Shown here one piece after another: positions 8,092 to 57,580 of a DNA stretch of 64,000 nucleotides. Origin of the DNA: Polaribacter litorisediminis (GTDB lineage: Bacteria; Bacteroidota; Bacteroidia; Flavobacteriales; Flavobacteriaceae). Under the pieces are notes generated by a model that worked only from the letters and a program-made list of their open reading frames with translations, ran no database searches and was not told where the DNA came from. The stretch's first letter is position 1; every line of letters starts with the position of its first letter. Both the position numbers and the translations under genes were made by a program. Location of the stretch: assembly GCF_019968605.1 (NCBI RefSeq), contig NZ_CP082966.1:3337501-3401500 (forward strand), read 5' to 3'.

Positions 8092-8814
8092 GTGCATTCT
8101 ATTGAGTCTTTCGGAACACATGATGGACCGGGCATTAGAATGGTTATTTTTTTACAAGGTTGTAAATTAAAATGCCAATATTGCCATAACCCAGATACCA
8201 TTGATACCCATGGAGGTGAAGAATATTCCATAGAAGATTTGGTACAAAGAGCGCTAAAAATGAAGTCTTATTTTGGTGATAAAGGCGGCGTAACGGTTTC
8301 TGGCGGAGAACCTCTTTTACAAGCACAGAATCTTATTCCGTTTTTTAAACGATTAAAAGAAGAAGGAATTCATACCAATATTGATACGAATGGACGCATG
8401 TTAAATCATCCTGTTGTAGAATTATTAGATTCCTATGCCGATTTAGTAATGCTAGATATTAAACACATGACAGAAGAAGGATTTCAGCAAATTACAGGTA
8501 AAAAAAATAAAGAAACTACCTTTAATTTTGCCAAACACAGAGAAGCTTCTGGCAAAAAAATGTGGTTACGATATGTGCTTATCCCCGGAATTACAAATAC
8601 CCCAGAATTATTACATCAATTAGGGAGTTATTTTAAAGAATATAAAACCATAGAACAAATAGAATTGCAGCCTTACCATAAATTAGGCATTCATAAATGG
8701 GAAGCTTTAGGTTGGGATTATCCATTAAAAGATGCTAGAGAAAACACAAAAGAAGAGTTAGAAGAGGCTTTTAATATTCTTAGTAACTACTTTAAAAAAG
8801 TTAAAATCAATTAA
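8092..8814 (+). CDS. pflA: Pyruvate formate-lyase activating enzyme
   Basis: A radical SAM protein that installs the glycyl radical on PflB. The 4Fe-4S site is Cys24, Cys28 and Cys31 in GCKLKCQYCHNP (CxxxCxxC); the SAM-binding GGEP motif follows (VSGGEPLL). The HSIESFGTHDGPGIR N-terminus is the usual PflA opening, and family members normally begin only two to five residues before it. The only canonical start there is GTG 8092, giving 240 residues; the nearby ATG at 8090 is out of frame. The reading frame stays open further upstream without a standard start codon. Eleven bases separate it from the transporter gene that follows. Confidence 0.93.
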   Translation: MHSIESFGTHDGPGIRMVIFLQGCKLKCQYCHNPDTIDTHGGEEYSIEDLVQRALKMKSYFGDKGGVTVSGGEPLLQAQNLIPFFKRLKEEGIHTNIDTNGRMLNHPVVELLDSYADLVMLDIKHMTEEGFQQITGKKNKETTFNFAKHREASGKKMWLRYVLIPGITNTPELLHQLGSYFKEYKTIEQIELQPYHKLGIHKWEALGWDYPLKDARENTKEELEEAFNILSNYFKKVKIN

Positions 8815-8825
8815 AAACAATTAAA

Positions 8826-10085
8826 ATGAGTACACCCAAACTAAAAAACAGATGGTTCATTGCGGCTTCTGCGGTAGGCATTCATATTTCCATAGGATCT
8901 GTTTACGCCTATTCAGTAATGACTAACCCCGTAAAAGATGTGTTTGATGTGGAAGGAAGTGTAATAAAATGGGCATTTAAAATAGCTATTTTGTTATTAG
9001 GTTTGTCCGCAGCCTTTTTAGGACGTTGGGTAGAAAAAGTAGGCCCAAAAATTAGCGGAACCACTGCAGGAATATTTTATGGAGTAGGAATTTTAGGCTC
9101 AGGATTGGCTGTACAATTAGAATCTCTTTGGCTATTTTATGTATGTTATGGTGTTATTGGAGGAATTGGTTTAGGTTTAGGATATATTACTCCCGTAAGT
9201 ACCTTGGTTAAATGGTTTCCAGACAAGAGAGGTCTAGCTACAGGAATGGCAATTATGGGCTTTGGTTTTGCTGCTTTAATTTTTGGTCCAGTAATGGCAA
9301 AATTATTTGAAACTGTAGGGGTTTCTAATGCATTTTATGTTTTAGGAGTTATTTATATGGTATTAATTTTATCTTCTGCCAGCTATATCGAAAGGCCTCC
9401 AGTTGGTTATGTACCTGAAGGATATAATGAAGGAGAAGGAAAAGTAATCAAAGAAGATTTAACAAATATTACTGCCAATGAAGCTTTAAAATCTACTCGT
9501 TTTTATTATATCTGGATCATGATGTTTATCAACATTGCATGTGGTATTGCTATTATTTCAGCTGCAAGTCCTATGATGCAAGAAAAGTTAAATTACACGC
9601 CCATGCAAGCTGCAGCTATTGTGGGTTTTATAGGAGTTTTTAATGGATTAGGACGTATTACTTGGTCTACATTATCAGACTATTTAGGAAGAGCTAACAC
9701 GTTTATTGTCTTTTTTGCCTTTCAAATTTTAGCCTTTTACTTCTTACCAAAAATAGGTATAGAAAGTGTTTTCTTAATTATATTATTTACCGTAATTACC
9801 ATGTATGGAGGCGGTTTTGCAATGTTACCTGCATTTTTAGGCGATTTATTTGGCACCAAACAATTAGGCGCAATTCATGGAATGGTTTTAGCCGCTTGGG
9901 GATTAGCAGGTGTTATTGGTCCAACAATTTATGATATGGTAAAACAACAAACAGGATCATTAGATACAACTCTCCTAATTTTTGCAGGCTTATTTGTTGT
10001 AGCATTTATTGTTTCAATAATGATGAAAATCTCCATAACAAAATCTGAAAAATTAAAAAAACACCAATTGAGCATCATCACCTAA
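8826..10085 (+). CDS. OFA-family MFS transporter, probably formate or pyruvate
   Basis: A 419-residue major facilitator protein with about 12 membrane helices, closest in style to the oxalate/formate antiporter (OFA) family: opening NRWFIAASAVGIHISIGSVYAYSV, conserved loop LVKWFPDKRGLATGMAIMGFG, and central glycine-rich helices. Starting 11 bp after pflA, it is surely in the pfl operon, so formate export (or pyruvate exchange) is the natural guess; OFA members include oxalate/formate exchangers and enteric YhjX, linked to pyruvate. No FocA-type formate channel is seen nearby. Substrate assignment is contextual. Confidence 0.85.
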   Translation: MSTPKLKNRWFIAASAVGIHISIGSVYAYSVMTNPVKDVFDVEGSVIKWAFKIAILLLGLSAAFLGRWVEKVGPKISGTTAGIFYGVGILGSGLAVQLESLWLFYVCYGVIGGIGLGLGYITPVSTLVKWFPDKRGLATGMAIMGFGFAALIFGPVMAKLFETVGVSNAFYVLGVIYMVLILSSASYIERPPVGYVPEGYNEGEGKVIKEDLTNITANEALKSTRFYYIWIMMFINIACGIAIISAASPMMQEKLNYTPMQAAAIVGFIGVFNGLGRITWSTLSDYLGRANTFIVFFAFQILAFYFLPKIGIESVFLIILFTVITMYGGGFAMLPAFLGDLFGTKQLGAIHGMVLAAWGLAGVIGPTIYDMVKQQTGSLDTTLLIFAGLFVVAFIVSIMMKISITKSEKLKKHQLSIIT

Positions 10086-10106
10086 TCACACTTCAGTTCA
10101 CTCACA

Positions 10107-10144
10107 AAAGATCTTTCACTATTTTCATAAGGAAAGATCTTTTT
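10107..10144 (+). terminator. Rho-independent terminator of the pfl operon
   Basis: Perfect 11-bp arms AAAGATCTTTC (10107-10117) and GAAAGATCTTT (10132-10142) with a 14-base loop and a short T run, 22 bp after the transporter stop. Confidence 0.85.
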
Positions 10145-10273
10145 AATTTTAAAAAAAAGTATTTCAAATAGTATTTTAAAGTATCTTTCCGAAATATTGT
10201 AACTGCCTAAGGTTATAATTCATTCCTGTTATCAGGTGCAATAAATACTAAAATCTATTCTAAAACCCTAATT

Positions 10274-10768
10274 ATGAAATACCTCTTATTTGTCATTGTG
10301 TTAATGCTATCTTTACATAATACTGCAGCTCAAGAACTCCCGAAAAAATCTGAAATTTTTGTACGGGTATACAATAATGTAGGTGAAAAAATTGCTAAAG
10401 GAAAAATTCTCAGTATAACTGAAAATTCTCTGATTCTAAAAAAAGGAAGTAGTTCTGTTACAATTCCGTCTAATGAAATTTCGTATTTAAAAACCAAGAG
10501 ATCTAATGGACATAATGTTTTATTGGGTGCATCTGGAGGTTCTATATTAGGGCTTGCCATAGTTGCTTCCGAAAGTGGAAATTCTAATGCTGGTTTTGGC
10601 GGCACAGCAAAAGGTCTCGCGTATGCCGGAGCAATTGTAGTGGTATTTATTGGAAGTGGAGTTGGTTATCTTACCACACTTTTTAAAAATTCTAACCAAT
10701 ATATAATTAATGGAGATACTGCAAAATGGCAAGGTTTTAAAGAAGAAATGTATGCCCCAAAATACTAA
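10274..10768 (+). CDS. Small exported protein with glycine-rich hydrophobic segments, unknown function
   Basis: A 164-residue protein with a signal peptide (MKYLLFVIVLMLSLHNTAAQ, cleavage near residue 20). A beta-rich part (about 28-76) reads like a small SH3-like or hexapeptide-free barrel (GKILSITENSLILKKG). Two glycine/alanine-rich hydrophobic stretches (about 80-95 and 107-130) could be membrane helices. Bacteroidota genomes carry many small secreted proteins of this sort; I do not recognise a named family. It stands alone between the pfl terminator and asd, with short flanking gaps that hold no clear promoter. Confidence 0.7.
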   Translation: MKYLLFVIVLMLSLHNTAAQELPKKSEIFVRVYNNVGEKIAKGKILSITENSLILKKGSSSVTIPSNEISYLKTKRSNGHNVLLGASGGSILGLAIVASESGNSNAGFGGTAKGLAYAGAIVVVFIGSGVGYLTTLFKNSNQYIINGDTAKWQGFKEEMYAPKY

Positions 10769-10917
10769 AATTACCTCAACTAGTTTAATTTTAAACATCT
10801 AAAATTTATCTGCTAAAATTTTAAACTTTCATTTAATTAGTATCAATTAGGTAATTTATTTCGATTTTTTTTTTAGCATCTTTGCATCCTATAATCGTAA
10901 AATAAATATTTAATCTG

Positions 10918-11907
10918 ATGAAAATAGCAGTAGTTGGCGCAACTGGAATGGTTGGTACCGTAATGTTAAAAGTTTTAGAAGAACGCAATTTACCAATTAC
11001 AGAATTAATTCCTGTAGCATCAGAAAGATCTGCTGGTAAAAAATTAAACTATAAAGGCAAAGAATATACCATAGTAACGTTGGCCGATGCTGTAAGTCTA
11101 AAACCAGATATTGCTCTTTTTTCTGCTGGTGGAGATACTTCTTTAGAATGGGCACCAAAATTTGCAGAAGTTGGAACCACCGTAATCGATAATTCATCAG
11201 CTTGGAGAATGGATCCGACTAAAAAATTGGTGGTTCCTGAAATCAACGGTGCTATTTTAACTGCTGATGATAAAATTATTGCAAATCCTAATTGTTCTAC
11301 CATTCAATTGGTGATGGCTTTGGCACCTTTGCACAAAAAATATAAAATGAAACGTTTGGTGATTTCTACGTATCAATCTGTTTCTGGAACGGGTGTAAAA
11401 GCGGTTCAACAATTAGATAATGAGGAAGCTGGTATTGATGGTGAGATGGCATATCCTCACAAAATTGGGAGAAATGCATTGCCACATTGCGATATCTTTT
11501 TAGAAAATGGCTACACCAAAGAAGAAATGAAATTGGTAAAAGAACCAAAGAAAATTTTAGGTGATGAGTCTTTTTCTGTAACAGCAACTGCGGTAAGAAT
11601 TCCAACTGCTGGCGGACATTCTGAAGCTGTAAATGTGCAGTTTTTAAATGATTTTGATTTGGATGAAGTTCGCGAACTTTTATCAGCAACTCCAGGTGTA
11701 ATTGTACAAGATGATTTGGCAAATAATGTATATCCAATGCCAATTAACGCCCATAATAAAGATGAAGTTTTTGTTGGACGCATTAGACGCGATGAATCCC
11801 AAAAAAATACCTTAAATTTGTGGATCGTTGCTGATAACTTACGAAAAGGTGCGGCAACAAACACAGTTCAAATAGCTGAATATTTAATCGCAAAAAATTT
11901 AGTCTAA
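10918..11907 (+). CDS. asd: Aspartate-semialdehyde dehydrogenase
   Basis: A 329-residue cytoplasmic enzyme reducing aspartyl phosphate to aspartate semialdehyde, the branch point to lysine/diaminopimelate, threonine and methionine. The NADPH-binding GATGMVG motif is at residues 7-13, the catalytic Cys126 in NPNCSTIQ, and the active-site His234 in PTAGGHSEA. Length is normal for the short Gram-positive/Bacteroidota type. A reductase gene begins 7 bp downstream and a LysE exporter after that, so three genes probably share a transcript. Confidence 0.96.
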   Translation: MKIAVVGATGMVGTVMLKVLEERNLPITELIPVASERSAGKKLNYKGKEYTIVTLADAVSLKPDIALFSAGGDTSLEWAPKFAEVGTTVIDNSSAWRMDPTKKLVVPEINGAILTADDKIIANPNCSTIQLVMALAPLHKKYKMKRLVISTYQSVSGTGVKAVQQLDNEEAGIDGEMAYPHKIGRNALPHCDIFLENGYTKEEMKLVKEPKKILGDESFSVTATAVRIPTAGGHSEAVNVQFLNDFDLDEVRELLSATPGVIVQDDLANNVYPMPINAHNKDEVFVGRIRRDESQKNTLNLWIVADNLRKGAATNTVQIAEYLIAKNLV

Positions 11908-51290: not shown

Positions 51291-52313
51291 TTAAAACAAT
51301 TCTCCTTGATTTATTCCTTTGACTCTTCCTAAATGTTTATACGCTAAATCTGTAACTTCTCTTCCTCTTGGTGTTCTCATAATAAAACCTTGCTGAATTA
51401 AAAAAGGTTCATATACTTCTTCAATGGTCTCTGTATTTTCAGAAACTGCGGTTGCAATTGTACTTAAACCTACAGGACCTCCTTTAAATTTATCAATGAT
51501 GGTTACTAAAATTTTATTATCCATCTCGTCTAAACCATGTGCATCTACATTTAGGGCTTTCAACGCATATTTTGCAATTTCTATCGTGATATTTCCATCG
51601 CCTTTTATTTGAGCAAAATCTCTAACTCTGCGCAGCAATGCATTTGCAATTCTTGGTGTTCCTCTGCTTCTACCTGCAATCTCTATAGCAGATTCCATAG
51701 AAATAGGAACTCCTAAAATATATGAGCTTCTTTGTATAATGGTTGTTAATAATTCTGTTGAATAATAATGCAAACGACTACTTATACCGAAACGAGCTCT
51801 CATGGGTGCCGTTAGTAATCCTGAACGGGTTGTTGCACCGATTAAGGTAAAAGGTTCTAAATTGATTTGAACGGTACGTGCATTTGGCCCAGATTCAATC
51901 ATGATATCAATCTTATAATCTTCCATAGCAGAGTACAAATATTCCTCTACAATAGGACTTAGTCGATGAATTTCATCAATAAAAAGTACATCTCGTTCGT
52001 CGAGGTTTGTAAGCAAACCTGCCAAATCTCCAGGTTTGTCTAAAACTGGTCCAGAAGTAACTTTAATTCCGACTTGCAATTCATTTGCTAAAATATGAGC
52101 CAATGTTGTTTTCCCTAAACCTGGAGGCCCGTGAAATAAAGTATGATCTAGCGCCTCTCCTCTTTGATTTGCTGCCTCTACGAAAATTTTTAAATTATCA
52201 ATTGCTTGATTTTGTCCTGAGAAATCCTCAAAAGAAAGCGGTCGCAATTTTTTTTCTACATCTAAATCTTCATTAGACAAATTACTATTCTCAGGATTTA
52301 AGTTTTCGTTCAT
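51291..52313 (-). CDS. ruvB: Holliday junction branch migration ATPase RuvB
   Basis: A 340-residue AAA+ motor. Walker [11 protein letters not shown] (61-70), Walker [10 protein letters not shown], sensor-1 [12 protein letters not shown] and the RuvB C-terminal winged helix with [14 protein letters not shown]. The ATG lies 4 bases after a TATCTTTG promoter box, so the transcript is close to leaderless. The promoter and the region before it are a copy of the segment after coxA (see repeats). Confidence 0.97.
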
Positions 52314-52317
52314 AAAA

Positions 52318-52325
52318 CAAAGATA
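52318..52325 (-). promoter_or_regulatory. -7 box of ruvB
   Basis: Minus-strand TATCTTTG matches TANNTTTG, with only TTTT between it and the ruvB ATG. The same box, in the same surroundings, recurs at 55702-55709. Confidence 0.65.
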
Positions 52326-52360
52326 ATAGATTTTAAAATAGATGCCACGTAAGTTTTGTT

Positions 52361-52407
52361 ACATAACATAAAACCTTTCCAAATTTTGGAAAGGTTTTAT
52401 GTTATGT
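52361..52407 (-). terminator. Perfect 23-bp palindromic hairpin upstream of ruvB
   Basis: Arms 52361-52383 and 52385-52407 pair without mismatch around one base (core ACCTTTCC/GGAAAGGT). It corresponds to the coxA terminator at 55751-55778 and now terminates transcripts arriving from wzc. Confidence 0.85.
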
Positions 52408-52430
52408 ACTACTTATAATAATTAGTAAGA

Positions 52431-52575
52431 TTATTCGCCTTTTAGTAAAAATATTGTTTGTAGAGCAAATTTTGCATATTCAAAATATTCACTTCCATCA
52501 TTTTCAGTATCTAAACGTTTACGCGATCATGCGACTATCTGTATTTTTGTAGTATTTTACCAAAAAGTTACAACT
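52431..52575 (-). pseudogene. Remnant of the coxA (ctaD) 3' end
   Basis: Reading the minus strand, KRLDTENDGSEYFEY and FALQTIFLLKGE-stop align with the intact CoxA tail (KRVDAEDDDSDYLHG, FVLQTTPLLDGE): 15 of 29 residues identical, no gaps. Upstream the homology continues (GRLPEVHRW) but with TGG changed to TAG and at least one single-base deletion, so it is non-functional. It lies in the 311-bp gap 52314-52624, together with the terminator and ruvB promoter. Confidence 0.85.
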
Positions 52576-52624
52576 ATAGGCATAGACGTCTCCTTTTTCT
52601 AAAAACGATAAGCATATTGAACAG

Positions 52625-55015
52625 CTAAATTATATTTATTTTTTTTAATATTTTTTTATACCAACCTTTCCGTAATCCCTCACTCTCAGCACCATAACCA
52701 TAACCATAACCATAGGCATAGCCATAGCCTTTCCTTAAGTCTGTTCCATTGATTAATAGTGCCATATTGGGCAAACGTTTTTCTTCGTACATTTTCTTTG
52801 GAATTTTCAATAACCGTTTATCCAAATAATTAGCACGAACCACATAGATTACTAAATCAGGTTTATTTTCGCTTAATAACAAAGTATCCGCAACAATATT
52901 TACAGGAGGTGTATCTACCACCACATAATCATAATGTTCTTTACCGTATTCCAATATCTCTTTAAAACGACCATTCATCAATAATTCTGCTGGATTTGGA
53001 GCATTTACACCTGCTTGTATCATATCAAAACCTGTAGATTCTACATGTTGTATTGTATTTTTTACTTCTAAACTTGTATCCATTAAAAAATGAGTTAATC
53101 CATTCTGTACTGGTACATTTAAATAAGTTGCCAACTTAGGTTTTCTAATATCCGCCCCAACAACCAACACTTTTTTATTAGCCAAAACTAATACTGTCGC
53201 TAAATTTATTGTCGTAAAAGTTTTGCCTTCTTGACTTATTGTACTCGTTATAAAAATTGATTTTGGACCGCTTTGAACGCCCAGCATAAAGTTTAGATTG
53301 GTTCGGAACAAACGAAAGGCTTCGGCTACAAAACTTTCATCATCTTTAGATATAATATTAAACTTGTTTCCTAATGCTGTTTTTGGGATATTACCAAGGA
53401 TTGGCATTTTAAGTTCCCTTTCCAAATCTTCAATATTGTGTATTTTAGTATCTAATGCAAGAATAATAAATATAATGATAAATGGTATTCCAAAACCTAC
53501 TATAAGTGAAAGAGAATATACTTTTTTAGGATTAATATTTACTGGACTATTACTACCATAAACACTCTCAATAATTTTTGCATTAGGAGTAGTAGCTGCC
53601 AAACTAATAGAATTTTCTTCCCTTTTTTGTAGCAAATACAAATACAATGTTTCTATAATTTGTTGTCGACGTCTCAAATCTCTGTACTCTCGTTCTTGTT
53701 TAGGAACCGATTGAATCTTTGAACCCATCAACTTTTCTCTTGTTTTTAGAGATTTTAAAGAAATATTTAAGGAAGACTCTAAATTCACCAAACTTTGTAA
53801 CATACTTTCCCTTATGTTTTTCAACTCTGAATCTAAATTAATAAGTATTGGATTCCTCATCCCAGAGCTTTTCTTAATTCGTTTTCGCTCTAATAACAAT
53901 TCATTATAAATCTGTGTAGATGAAGCAAAAGAGTTATCAGATAACCCTAAATTCTCAGGAATTAAATCATCAAAGTTATTTTTAATATAAGACGATACAT
54001 AAGATATTAGTTTTAGCTGTGTATTTATGTCTACAATACTTTCTTCTATGCTAGAATTAGAAGACAACGCCATCTCAGCTTCCTTTTGAACATCCGTTAT
54101 TTCATTAACGATCATAAATGATTCAACATTCCTATCCAGAAGAGATAGATCTTTTGTAATGACAACCAATCTTTCTTTTATAAAATCATTGGTCTTTACA
54201 GCGATGGCATTTTTATCAATTATGGCATTTTGATTATACTTTTTTACCAAGCTATAGAGAATATTTTTTGCTTTTTGTTTTATACCGTGTTGCATACTTA
54301 GTTTAACCAAACTAGATTTTACATCAGCTGGCTCAATACTAATAGTCTTTTTTAGTTGACCTGCCACTGATTCGATTGACCGAATAGCAACTCTGTATCC
54401 GTCATTATAATTAGAAAATTCAGATTTCGTAGGGGTTAAAATAAATTTAATTTTATCAATGGTGATTGTTGCACCATAAGTAAACTCCCCAATAGATTCT
54501 TCACCAGAATCTTCTAACGAAAATTGCGTTTTAGAAATTGGTATGACTTTAAATGAACAGGTTTCTGAATTTAATATTGAGTCTTTAGTTAAAAAATTTA
54601 TCTTAAAAGGCAAAACATCTTTATCCACCTCATATTCTCTAATTAAGTTTTTTTTATAGTAAGTAACGTTGAGTTTTAAATCTTTTACGACTTGTGCAAC
54701 CAAATCTTTAGACCTAAGAATACCCAATTCATTATCGAAAGAAGACCTCATGTCACTCATTACTCCTAGATCCTGAAAAGCAGAGAGTTCGCTCTGCCCT
54801 CCTCCAGAATCCTTATCATTTATCAAAATGGTTGTTGACACCTCATAAATTCTTGGCGTATATTTTAAATTTAAAAATCCGTAAATTACAGTTAGCACAA
54901 CTGATAACAAAAACCATTTGTAATACGAAAAGTATTTTTCAACTTCTGCCCGTATATTAAATGAATCATGATCCTCTTCAGAATAGATAGCAGCCGCATT
55001 ATTATTTTCTAACAT
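52625..55015 (-). CDS. Wzc-type polysaccharide co-polymerase / tyrosine autokinase
   Basis: A 796-residue inner-membrane protein controlling capsule or exopolysaccharide export. Wzz-like N-terminal domain with a first helix at about 33-52, a long periplasmic coiled-coil and GNVR region (about 250-480), a second helix (about 505-525), then a BY-kinase domain with Walker A ISQEGKT (Lys598), Walker A' VVGADIRKP and Walker B YDYVVVDTPP. The C-terminus bears a Tyr/Gly cluster (GYGYAYGYGYGYG) for autophosphorylation. Unusually it is alone: no wza, wzx or glycosyltransferase lies beside it, 786 bp of non-coding DNA precedes it, and coxA-derived sequence lies on both sides. Confidence 0.93.
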   Translation of the reverse strand: MLENNNAAAIYSEEDHDSFNIRAEVEKYFSYYKWFLLSVVLTVIYGFLNLKYTPRIYEVSTTILINDKDSGGGQSELSAFQDLGVMSDMRSSFDNELGILRSKDLVAQVVKDLKLNVTYYKKNLIREYEVDKDVLPFKINFLTKDSILNSETCSFKVIPISKTQFSLEDSGEESIGEFTYGATITIDKIKFILTPTKSEFSNYNDGYRVAIRSIESVAGQLKKTISIEPADVKSSLVKLSMQHGIKQKAKNILYSLVKKYNQNAIIDKNAIAVKTNDFIKERLVVITKDLSLLDRNVESFMIVNEITDVQKEAEMALSSNSSIEESIVDINTQLKLISYVSSYIKNNFDDLIPENLGLSDNSFASSTQIYNELLLERKRIKKSSGMRNPILINLDSELKNIRESMLQSLVNLESSLNISLKSLKTREKLMGSKIQSVPKQEREYRDLRRRQQIIETLYLYLLQKREENSISLAATTPNAKIIESVYGSNSPVNINPKKVYSLSLIVGFGIPFIIIFIILALDTKIHNIEDLERELKMPILGNIPKTALGNKFNIISKDDESFVAEAFRLFRTNLNFMLGVQSGPKSIFITSTISQEGKTFTTINLATVLVLANKKVLVVGADIRKPKLATYLNVPVQNGLTHFLMDTSLEVKNTIQHVESTGFDMIQAGVNAPNPAELLMNGRFKEILEYGKEHYDYVVVDTPPVNIVADTLLLSENKPDLVIYVVRANYLDKRLLKIPKKMYEEKRLPNMALLINGTDLRKGYGYAYGYGYGYGAESEGLRKGWYKKILKKINII

Positions 55016-55701
55016 AACCTTTTAACTGATAAGTTAAAATCAAAACGAACAAATCTACCATCTATATTCATATAACTAACAAAATTGAATTTTATAAAAT
55101 TAAAGCGATATAATTTATTGTTGAATTCATTGAACATACAATTCATAAAATTGTGCGCATAAAAGACTAGATAACGAATCAACACTTCATCAATTAAAAT
55201 TAATATTATCAACAATATTTCTTCTTTTGTACATTCATAGCGGAGTTTTGTATACACATATTCGAAAATATCTTAATCCTATATAGCCAAAGAATAATAA
55301 CTAGTTGACATAACCAATATAATAGCATATAACCTATTAATCATTGAACATAGTACATACCTGAAAGTCATATGAGTTTTAATATGGACTGTTAAAATCG
55401 TTAACTTCTTTCCTTATACATACGCTAAAAGTTTTTATTAAAGCGTATTTCATTTACCAAGTGCAACTAAATAGGAAATACATTTCGATTCCCTTAAATC
55501 TAAAATGAAGAAAACAGCTTTAAAAATATCATATATATTAAAAAAATTTATTTCAAATCATTACCTACTTTTAATACCAATAATAAATATAATTACATCC
55601 TCATAATTTAAAATTTTTATGCTTATTGCTATAAAATCGTTTCTACCCAATCTATATTAAAAGGATTCATAGATTTAAATAATTATATCTTCTGACGGGC
55701 G

Positions 55702-55709
55702 CAAAGATA
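55702..55709 (-). promoter_or_regulatory. Duplicated ruvB-type -7 box upstream of wzc
   Basis: Minus-strand TATCTTTG within a 24-base block nearly identical to the ruvB promoter. If active it would give wzc a leader of about 680 nt. Confidence 0.5.
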
Positions 55710-55750
55710 ATAGAATTTAAAATAGTTTTCGAGTAAGACTTTTTTACAAA

Positions 55751-55778
55751 AAAACCTTTTCAAATTTGAAAAGGTTTT
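55751..55778 (-). terminator. Terminator of the act-cox operon
   Basis: A perfect 28-nt palindrome (half AAAACCTTTTCAAA) 24 bp after the coxA stop, with a T tract on the minus-strand exit side. Confidence 0.9.
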
Positions 55779-55801
55779 ATATTTTTAAATAGACTTAAAC
55801 C

Positions 55802-57580
55802 TTAAGAAGGTTCTTCTCCATCTAGTAAAGGTGTTGTCTGTAAAACAAAATCTTCACCATGTAGATAATCACTGTCATCATCTTCTGCGTCCACACGCTT
55901 ACTATAATCATAAGCCCATCTATGAACCTCTGGCAATCTCCCTGGCCAATTTCCATGAATATGTTCTACTGGTGTAGTCCATTCTAACGTATTCGACTTC
56001 CAAGGATTTTGTGTTGCCTTTTGGCCTCTATACATTGATATAAAGAAGTTTGCTAAAAATATAATCTGAGCGACGCCACCAACTATTGCAAACAAAGTGA
56101 TTACCACATTCACGTCCGCTAAATCGTCAAACATTGGAAATGCTGTATTTGAGTAATATCTACGTGGTAAACCTGCTAAACCAATAAAATGCATTGGCCA
56201 AAATACCCCGTAAGCACAAACTATTGTAATCCAAAAATGCCAATAGCCCAATGTCTTATTCATCATTCTCCCATACATTTTAGGAAACCAATGATAAATA
56301 CCAGCGTACATTCCGAATATTGCAGAAACCCCCATAACCAAGTGGAAATGCGCTACTACAAAGTAAGTGTCATGAATAGCGATATCTAAAGCAGAATCTC
56401 CCAAAACTAATCCTGTTAAACCTCCGGTTACGAAAGTAGAGACTAATCCGATTGAAAATAACATCGCGGGATTTAACTGCAAATTACCTTTCCATAAAGT
56501 TGTAACATAATTAAACGCTTTTACCGCTGACGGAATTGCAATTAATAACGTTGTAAACGTAAACACAGATCCTAAGAAAGGATTCATTCCGGAAATAAAC
56601 ATATGGTGACCCCAAACAATTGTGGATAAAAATGCAATTGCCATTATTGACATTACCATTGCACGATATCCAAAAATAGGCTTTCTCGAATTTGTTGATA
56701 TAATTTCTGATGTAATTCCTAAAGCAGGAAGCAGAACGATATATACCTCTGGATGTCCTAGAAACCAAAATAGGTGTTCGAACAAAACTGGTGATCCCCC
56801 TTGATAATGCAATACTTCGCCCGAAATAAATATATCTGACAAATAAAAGGATGTTCCAAAGGATCTATCAAACATTAATAGTAATGAAGCCGATAACAAA
56901 ACCGGAAAAGAAACCACTCCAATAATAGCAGTGATAAAGAATGCCCAAATTGTTAATGGTAATCTTGTCATTTTCATTCCCTTTGTTCTTAAATTAAGCA
57001 CGGTAACGATATAATTAAGTGCACCAATTAAAGAAGATGCAATAAATATCGCCATAGAAACCAACCATAATGTCATACCTGTACCAGAACCAGGAATTGC
57101 CTGCGGTAATGCACTCAATGGAGGATAAACCGTCCATCCTGCTGATGCTGGACCTGCCTCCACAAACAATGAAAACAGCATGATAATACTTGACAAAAAG
57201 AATAACCAATAAGACACCATATTTAAAAAACCTGATGCCATATCTCGTGCTCCAATTTGTAAAGGAATTAATAGATTTGAAAAAGTACCACTTAAGCCCG
57301 CCGTTAATACGAAAAAGACCATTATAGTTCCATGAATAGTTACTAAAGCCAAATAAATATCAGGGCTCATTACACCATCTGTTTGGTGCGGTCCTAAAAA
57401 GGCTTCTATAATTGAAAATGATGTGTCTGGCCAAGCCAGTTGTAACCTAAATAACATAGACATTAACACAGCAATAACTCCCATGAACATACCTGTTACC
57501 AAGAATTGTTTAGAAATCATTTTATGATCTTGACTAAAAATATATTTTGTTACAAATGTTTCTTTATGATGTTCTGACAT
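55802..57580 (-). CDS. ctaD: Cytochrome c oxidase subunit I
   Basis: A 592-residue heme-copper oxidase core subunit with 12 or more helices. Heme and CuB ligands are visible: LVTIHGTIMVFF (low-spin heme His), FWFLGHPEVYIVLLPALG (the HPEVY Tyr-His crosslink region), WGHHMFISG (CuB His pair) and DTYFVVAHFHLVMG (heme ligands). The C-terminal tail is Asp-rich (RVDAEDDDSDY). It is the last gene of the act-cox operon, 33 bp after ctaC. The 3' end is duplicated near ruvB. Confidence 0.97.
   Translation of the reverse strand: MSEHHKETFVTKYIFSQDHKMISKQFLVTGMFMGVIAVLMSMLFRLQLAWPDTSFSIIEAFLGPHQTDGVMSPDIYLALVTIHGTIMVFFVLTAGLSGTFSNLLIPLQIGARDMASGFLNMVSYWLFFLSSIIMLFSLFVEAGPASAGWTVYPPLSALPQAIPGSGTGMTLWLVSMAIFIASSLIGALNYIVTVLNLRTKGMKMTRLPLTIWAFFITAIIGVVSFPVLLSASLLLMFDRSFGTSFYLSDIFISGEVLHYQGGSPVLFEHLFWFLGHPEVYIVLLPALGITSEIISTNSRKPIFGYRAMVMSIMAIAFLSTIVWGHHMFISGMNPFLGSVFTFTTLLIAIPSAVKAFNYVTTLWKGNLQLNPAMLFSIGLVSTFVTGGLTGLVLGDSALDIAIHDTYFVVAHFHLVMGVSAIFGMYAGIYHWFPKMYGRMMNKTLGYWHFWITIVCAYGVFWPMHFIGLAGLPRRYYSNTAFPMFDDLADVNVVITLFAIVGGVAQIIFLANFFISMYRGQKATQNPWKSNTLEWTTPVEHIHGNWPGRLPEVHRWAYDYSKRVDAEDDDSDYLHGEDFVLQTTPLLDGEEPS

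Follow-up and report, generated by a model that had tools for sequence, protein, structure and literature searches.

Gene Content of the coxA–ruvB Locus

The window, by which we mean the whole stretch of 64,000 nucleotides analyzed here, belongs to a genome of 4.34 Mb represented by a single contig, and its genus group takes in Polaribacter and Tenacibaculum loci. The locus lies on the minus strand, where the order is coxA, a first copy of the coxA–ruvB junction, an AT-rich stretch, wzc, a second junction copy, and ruvB. Both outer genes are intact: coxA (55802-57580) encodes a cytochrome c oxidase subunit I of 592 aa (PF00115, E 4e-137), and ruvB (51291-52313) a protein of 340 aa (PF05496, E 8.4e-76) with orthologs 97% identical present in the genus, among the matches listed. 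Junction copy 1 (55702-55902), which lies away from ruvB, consists of the intact coxA 3′ end (55802-55900), a terminator palindrome (about 55749-55785), and a ruvB-type promoter block (55702-55725). Junction copy 2 (52318-52522) consists of a decayed coxA 3′ end with a premature stop (52422-52520, hereafter the stub), a terminator palindrome (about 52360-52408), and the ruvB promoter block (52318-52341).

Between the two copies, the open reading frames (ORFs) of at least 80 aa are wzc, an antisense frame within it, and an 82-aa frame overlapping its start, and no recombinase ORF was found among these. The AT-rich stretch between copy 1 and wzc (55016-55701; 23.6% GC) gave, besides itself, two short weak DNA matches in 35 genomes, that of the window included. 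An origin of these ~685 bp from the flanks of other wzc genes was rejected, given that six wzc loci yielded no convincing blastn match. A promoter-like TTTG-N-TAnnTTTG match before wzc (55050-55083) was also discarded, being at chance level (7 occurrences in the window vs. 7.45 expected).

The wzc gene itself (52625-55015) is intact, codes for 796 aa with tyrosine autokinase and polysaccharide co-polymerase character, and has no adjacent wza. Its product is, by predicted activity, a Wzc-type tyrosine autokinase. It is similar overall to GumC/Wzc proteins, has a tyrosine-rich C terminus (the GYGYAYGYGYGYG tail), and scores above the cut-off for PF13614 (39 vs. 27) and below it for Wzz (24.3 vs. 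25.5) and GNVR (22.4 vs. 27.7). The domain make-up is that of the Bacteroidota Wzc/GumC autokinases, among which it has relatives of 47–63% identity. Identity to the two nearest proteins is 63% and 62%, the second of them being from Polaribacter sp. IC073, and the genome holds two further full-length wzc genes, 47% and 37% identical. Within the genus, relatives at E 1e-180 occur in 32 of 166 genomes, that of the window included; among the candidates scored, up to six for each genome, the best other wzc, from genome G118, reaches 61%. This gene directly follows a wza-like gene, as read from the ORF, and the coxA–ruvB gap of the same genome is about 130 bp. In six other wzc loci (L006, L007, L229-L232) a wza-like gene, again read from the ORF, is also found directly upstream, whereas the wzc of the window stands alone between coxA and ruvB. 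Its GC content (30.9%) is close to that of the window (32.7%). We take this gene to be an acquired orphan, and we infer that it acts in trans, together with exporters encoded at other polysaccharide loci.

A Junction Copy Flanks the Insert on Each Side

The insert is flanked by direct repeats of its target. Local alignment of the two junction segments scores 111, in comparison with a best score of 36 and a mean of 22.6 in 500 first-order Markov resamples; their similarity is far above chance. Compared with its own genome, copy 2 matches copy 1 over about 200 bp at 70% identity (E 1.3e-18); the other matches listed comprise copy 2 itself and two minus-strand matches of the terminator palindromes. 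An initial annotation of this DNA had described two collinear segments of 240 bp. The collinearity is confirmed, but the length has to be shortened, since secure homology covers about 200 bp, that is, the two copies as delimited above. A gentler alignment continues weakly past this point, and a comparison with coxA over 52501-52900 scores 21, below the resample maximum of 34. Two counts of that description were reproduced on recounting: the promoter blocks differ at 1 of 24 bases, and the stub is identical to the intact coxA tail at 15 of 29 residues. Both copies also contain a palindromic terminator.

Further remnants were sought and rejected. For a ruvB remnant after copy 1 the scores are 25 in the window and 20 in a second locus described below (L047), with resample maxima of 35 and 32, and four comparisons of coxA or ruvB with other parts of the insert each score below the maximum of 10 resamples.

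The Uninterrupted Junction Is Common in Relatives

We collected 117 loci around ruvB (37 plus 80, four of the 37 from other families of the order). Within the stretch read, coxA is upstream of ruvB in 96 of them; the other 21 have no coxA upstream in the stretch read, which is short in some. The gap between the two genes is 67–238 bp in 67 of the 96 loci and 407–8527 bp in 29. Four locus pairs are the same record twice, which leaves 92 distinct junctions, 65 of them with a gap of at most 250 bp; at L221, for example, it measures 106 bp. A genus-wide search of 166 genomes placed ruvB in at least 159 and coxA in at least 158, and many of the pairs, read by eye among the matches listed, are again direct neighbors. 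A wzc between or around coxA and ruvB was found in none of the 117 loci read.

Relatives thus commonly have an empty site and, since wzc is at this site in 0 of 117 loci, wzc was inserted; we take the insert as derived. The idea that DNA carrying wzc came to split an ancestral coxA–ruvB junction, which now lies on both sides, is supported by this distribution: the uninterrupted version that the initial annotation suggested looking for does exist, and relatives do not share a wzc at a site that is never empty.

The Two Copies Probably Share One Source

The divergence of the two coxA ends had initially been read as a sign that the copies came from different strains. Over the last 33 codons of coxA, aligned gapless with 19 empty-site relatives, copy 1 has a mean identity of 81% and copy 2 of 64%, and copy 1 is the closer in all 19. 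Compared with the consensus of these relatives, the stub has 31 differences in 96 bases, distributed as 14/7/10 over codon positions 1/2/3, whereas the 19 relatives together differ at 53/20/160, mostly at third positions (Fisher p 2e-4, the relatives not being independent of each other). Moreover, 20 of the 96 bases of the stub are seen in no relative, compared with 2 of 96 in copy 1 and 0–7 in each relative. The stub thus looks like a pseudogene decaying under lost coding selection, judging from its substitutions, and not like the working tail of another strain.

The promoters are less easily told apart. Mean identity to the 19 relatives is 0.676 for copy 1 and 0.667 for copy 2, which does not separate the copies, and copy 2 is the closer to 8 relatives and copy 1 to 10. 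Only the nearest relative and local alignment distinguish them: among 53 junctions, L221 is the best match of both, with a score of 98 for copy 2 (next 69) and of 68 for copy 1 (next 50). L221 is also nearest in whole coxA DNA (85.3%). Taken piece by piece along coxA, the nearest relatives are L221, L220, L205, L206, a tie of L224, L221 and L205, L221, and L045, all with small margins. A foreign coxA 3′ end was accordingly rejected, as no drop or jump occurs along the gene, and the test is a weak one because the nearest relative has only about 85% DNA identity. For the same reason the event is not datable. The codon-position pattern of the stub, the shared nearest relative of both promoters and, more weakly, the even course of coxA argue against an origin of the copies in different strains. 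Import from a near relative is possible.

A Second Case and the Rarity of Tail Duplication

A comparable arrangement occurs at L047 (genome G026), an uncultured Polaribacter, isolate YR2-5-5-J, of which L079 is a duplicate record. Here a stretch of 3136 bp at the coxA–ruvB junction (8679-11814) carries a frameshifted SNF2 helicase gene, and a second coxA tail with terminator lies beside ruvB, with a score of 267 against a maximum of 30 in 100 resamples. The aligned tail extends from −54 to +105 around the coxA end. Relative to that end, the duplication reaches back into the coxA tail to −101 in the window and to −54 in L047, the two cases available. Two further proposals for L047 were discarded, namely that its copy 1 ends in the ruvB promoter of another strain (score 29, resample maximum 27) and that the SNF2 pieces belong to a defence system, the model matches being put down to shared helicase domains. 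Both L047 copies hold a palindrome-like stretch (TTGTCATTC...GGCAGGAATCTCAA), which may be a small repeat element.

Among 49 long-gap rows (46 distinct), each tested with 30 resamples, duplication of the coding tail of coxA was found only in the window and in L047/L079. The family-wide sample consisted of 40 junctions chosen by their long gap among the matches listed; two proved short, and in the remaining 38, some of which look like repeats of earlier loci, coding-tail duplication was found in none. Flags raised at L097, L122, L194, L244, L250, and L272 lie past the coxA stop codon, are terminator-like, and were not counted as tail duplications. Long gaps at coxA–ruvB are thus common, and duplication of the coxA tail is rare.

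A Single Crossover as the Probable Route of Insertion

We propose that the native junction was duplicated around acquired DNA carrying wzc, probably by a single crossover with a circular molecule, and that the redundant halves then decayed; we would give this reading a probability of about 0.62. Foreign DNA, circular or recircularized and bearing wzc together with a short segment homologous to the junction, would have entered the native coxA–ruvB junction through a Campbell-type single crossover. About 200 bp of the junction, comprising the last ~33 coxA codons, the terminator, and the ruvB promoter, would have become duplicated as direct repeats, with coxA retaining its intact tail in copy 1 and ruvB its promoter in copy 2. 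The redundant halves would subsequently have decayed, as seems to be the case for the coxA stub of copy 2 and, less clearly, for the ruvB promoter of copy 1. The junction may tolerate such an event because, once duplicated, it still supplies coxA with its 3′ end and ruvB with its promoter. The repeat stops directly ahead of the ruvB start codon, an end point of which the single-crossover model gives no account.

The length of the direct repeats, ~200 bp in the window and ~160 bp in L047, bears on the route, as transposon target duplications fall far short of both values. Conjugation experiments in Escherichia coli offer a closer parallel: 56 of 60 recombinant clones gave a duplication-diagnostic PCR product, 14 sequenced clones carried duplications of 109–950 bp, and the authors ascribe these to a single crossover with a circular molecule (PMC3240628). 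Homology-facilitated illegitimate recombination, by the account given in the same report, generally results in an insertion together with a deletion of similar size. Since illegitimate recombination generally goes with deletions and crossover with a circle goes with duplications (PMC3240628), we rank the single crossover first and regard the integration of circular DNA, with moderate confidence, as the likeliest route. In both the window and the E. coli recombinants, foreign DNA is accompanied by a direct duplication of a homologous gene end; the E. coli study, however, used a laboratory plasmid and lacZ (PMC3240628), whereas the window is natural and no plasmid backbone is seen in it.

In an alternative scenario, homology-facilitated illegitimate recombination, a linear donor from another strain would have paired with coxA by homology and been joined illegitimately at its other end, so that the old tail was displaced toward ruvB. 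This comes close to the earlier reading, in which entry by flanking homology swapped one coxA end; the split junction of that reading is supported, an origin of its copies in different strains is not, and we keep this route as an unlikely rival. Displacement of an old 3′ end by one-sided recombination has been proposed for the effector-immunity arrays of Vibrio (PMC5361080), and a search of 13 Flavobacteriaceae genera reported homologs of Riemerella transformation genes in most of these, including Polaribacter (PMC8459023). The genome of the window encodes a ComEC-family protein and gave no match to Ku (a control search was positive in 1 of 14 genomes), both of which speak for such a route. 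Nevertheless, the published cases generally combine an insertion with a similar-sized deletion and not with a duplication (PMC3240628); at the window both junction flanks are present and no loss of recipient DNA is seen. In addition, the stub looks decayed rather than foreign, both promoters are nearest to L221, and coxA has no foreign 3′ end, on the weak test above. The V. cholerae arrays resemble the window in that DNA is inserted at the 3′ region of a gene and the older part displaced, but in those arrays the incoming DNA brings a different effector-immunity pair and the old immunity gene is kept (PMC5361080), whereas in the window both tails belong to the same housekeeping gene, coxA, and the displaced one decays.

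Repair of a break might also leave native-type sequence directly duplicated on both sides with both copies nearest to one lineage, either through a staggered break of ~200 bp that was filled, with captured DNA ligated in, or through a small tandem duplication followed by entry of DNA at the joint. The absence of a Ku match in the genome makes classical end joining unlikely, and the tandem version needs two steps; we consider either form quite improbable.

Prophages and islands can integrate into the 3′ end of a conserved gene, as does e14 at icd in E. coli, which brings a replacement 3′ end. That the window holds the remnant of a site-specific element of this kind, one that used the 3′ end of coxA for attachment and brought along a replacement end, is very improbable: repeats of the gene 3′ end do flank the insert in the window and in L047, as they lie on both sides of an e14-type insert, but no recombinase or integrase ORF is present among the insert ORFs of at least 80 aa, the repeat has no fixed end (the duplicated tail starts differ between the two cases), and tail duplication is rare among the relatives tested, found only at L047/L079 among the 48 further long-gap rows and in 0 of 38 rows of the family sample.

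Whichever the route, of which we favor the single crossover, the locus is a clear scar of gene insertion and not a new kind of mobile element. It provides a natural example, complete with empty-site controls, of a core-gene junction that was entered with neither neighbor broken. A search for housekeeping genes with displaced 3′ stubs might uncover integrase-free insertions that island finders relying on integrases or attachment sites would miss. A broader proposition, which we regard as doubtful, is that coxA–ruvB is a recurrent capture site in the genus, at which unrelated genes enter by single crossovers over short homology, with displaced, decaying coxA ends left behind. If so, such capture would in general leave a readable scar, in the form of displaced 3′ ends of housekeeping genes.

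Variation of the coxA–ruvB Interval in Other Genomes

In nine genomes (L209-L216, L228) whose ruvB has 95–97% protein identity to that of the window, coxA is not beside ruvB. On contigs that contain both genes, the distance between them is about 0.5 Mb or more, or 67 kb in G141. The corresponding value for coxA, in the five coxA-away genomes read (L217-L220, L207), is 88–92%. The window ruvB DNA is nearest to that of L213 (0.87), one of the coxA-away genomes, whereas the window coxA is nearest to L221; from this mismatch of nearest relatives, a relocation or replacement of the cox operon is possible. That the stub is a leftover of cox operon loss was rejected, as the nine coxA-away genomes show no coxA tail, by eye, in the 300 bp before ruvB.

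Intermediate distances are also found, coxA and ruvB being 16.1 kb apart in L226 (G102) and about 22.8 kb apart in L225/L208 (G077). Several loci of the genus (L050, L059, L197-L200, L223, L224, L227) have gaps of about 2.2 kb, and those of L050 and L059 contain two ORFs each, of 394–395 and 288–289 aa. Finally, gaps of 7.4–8.5 kb occur in several genera (L105, L115, L118, L128, L129) and share, from ORF reading, a recurring three-gene block that encodes a large secreted protein, a PorP/SprF-like protein (318–327 aa), and a protein of 628–676 aa.
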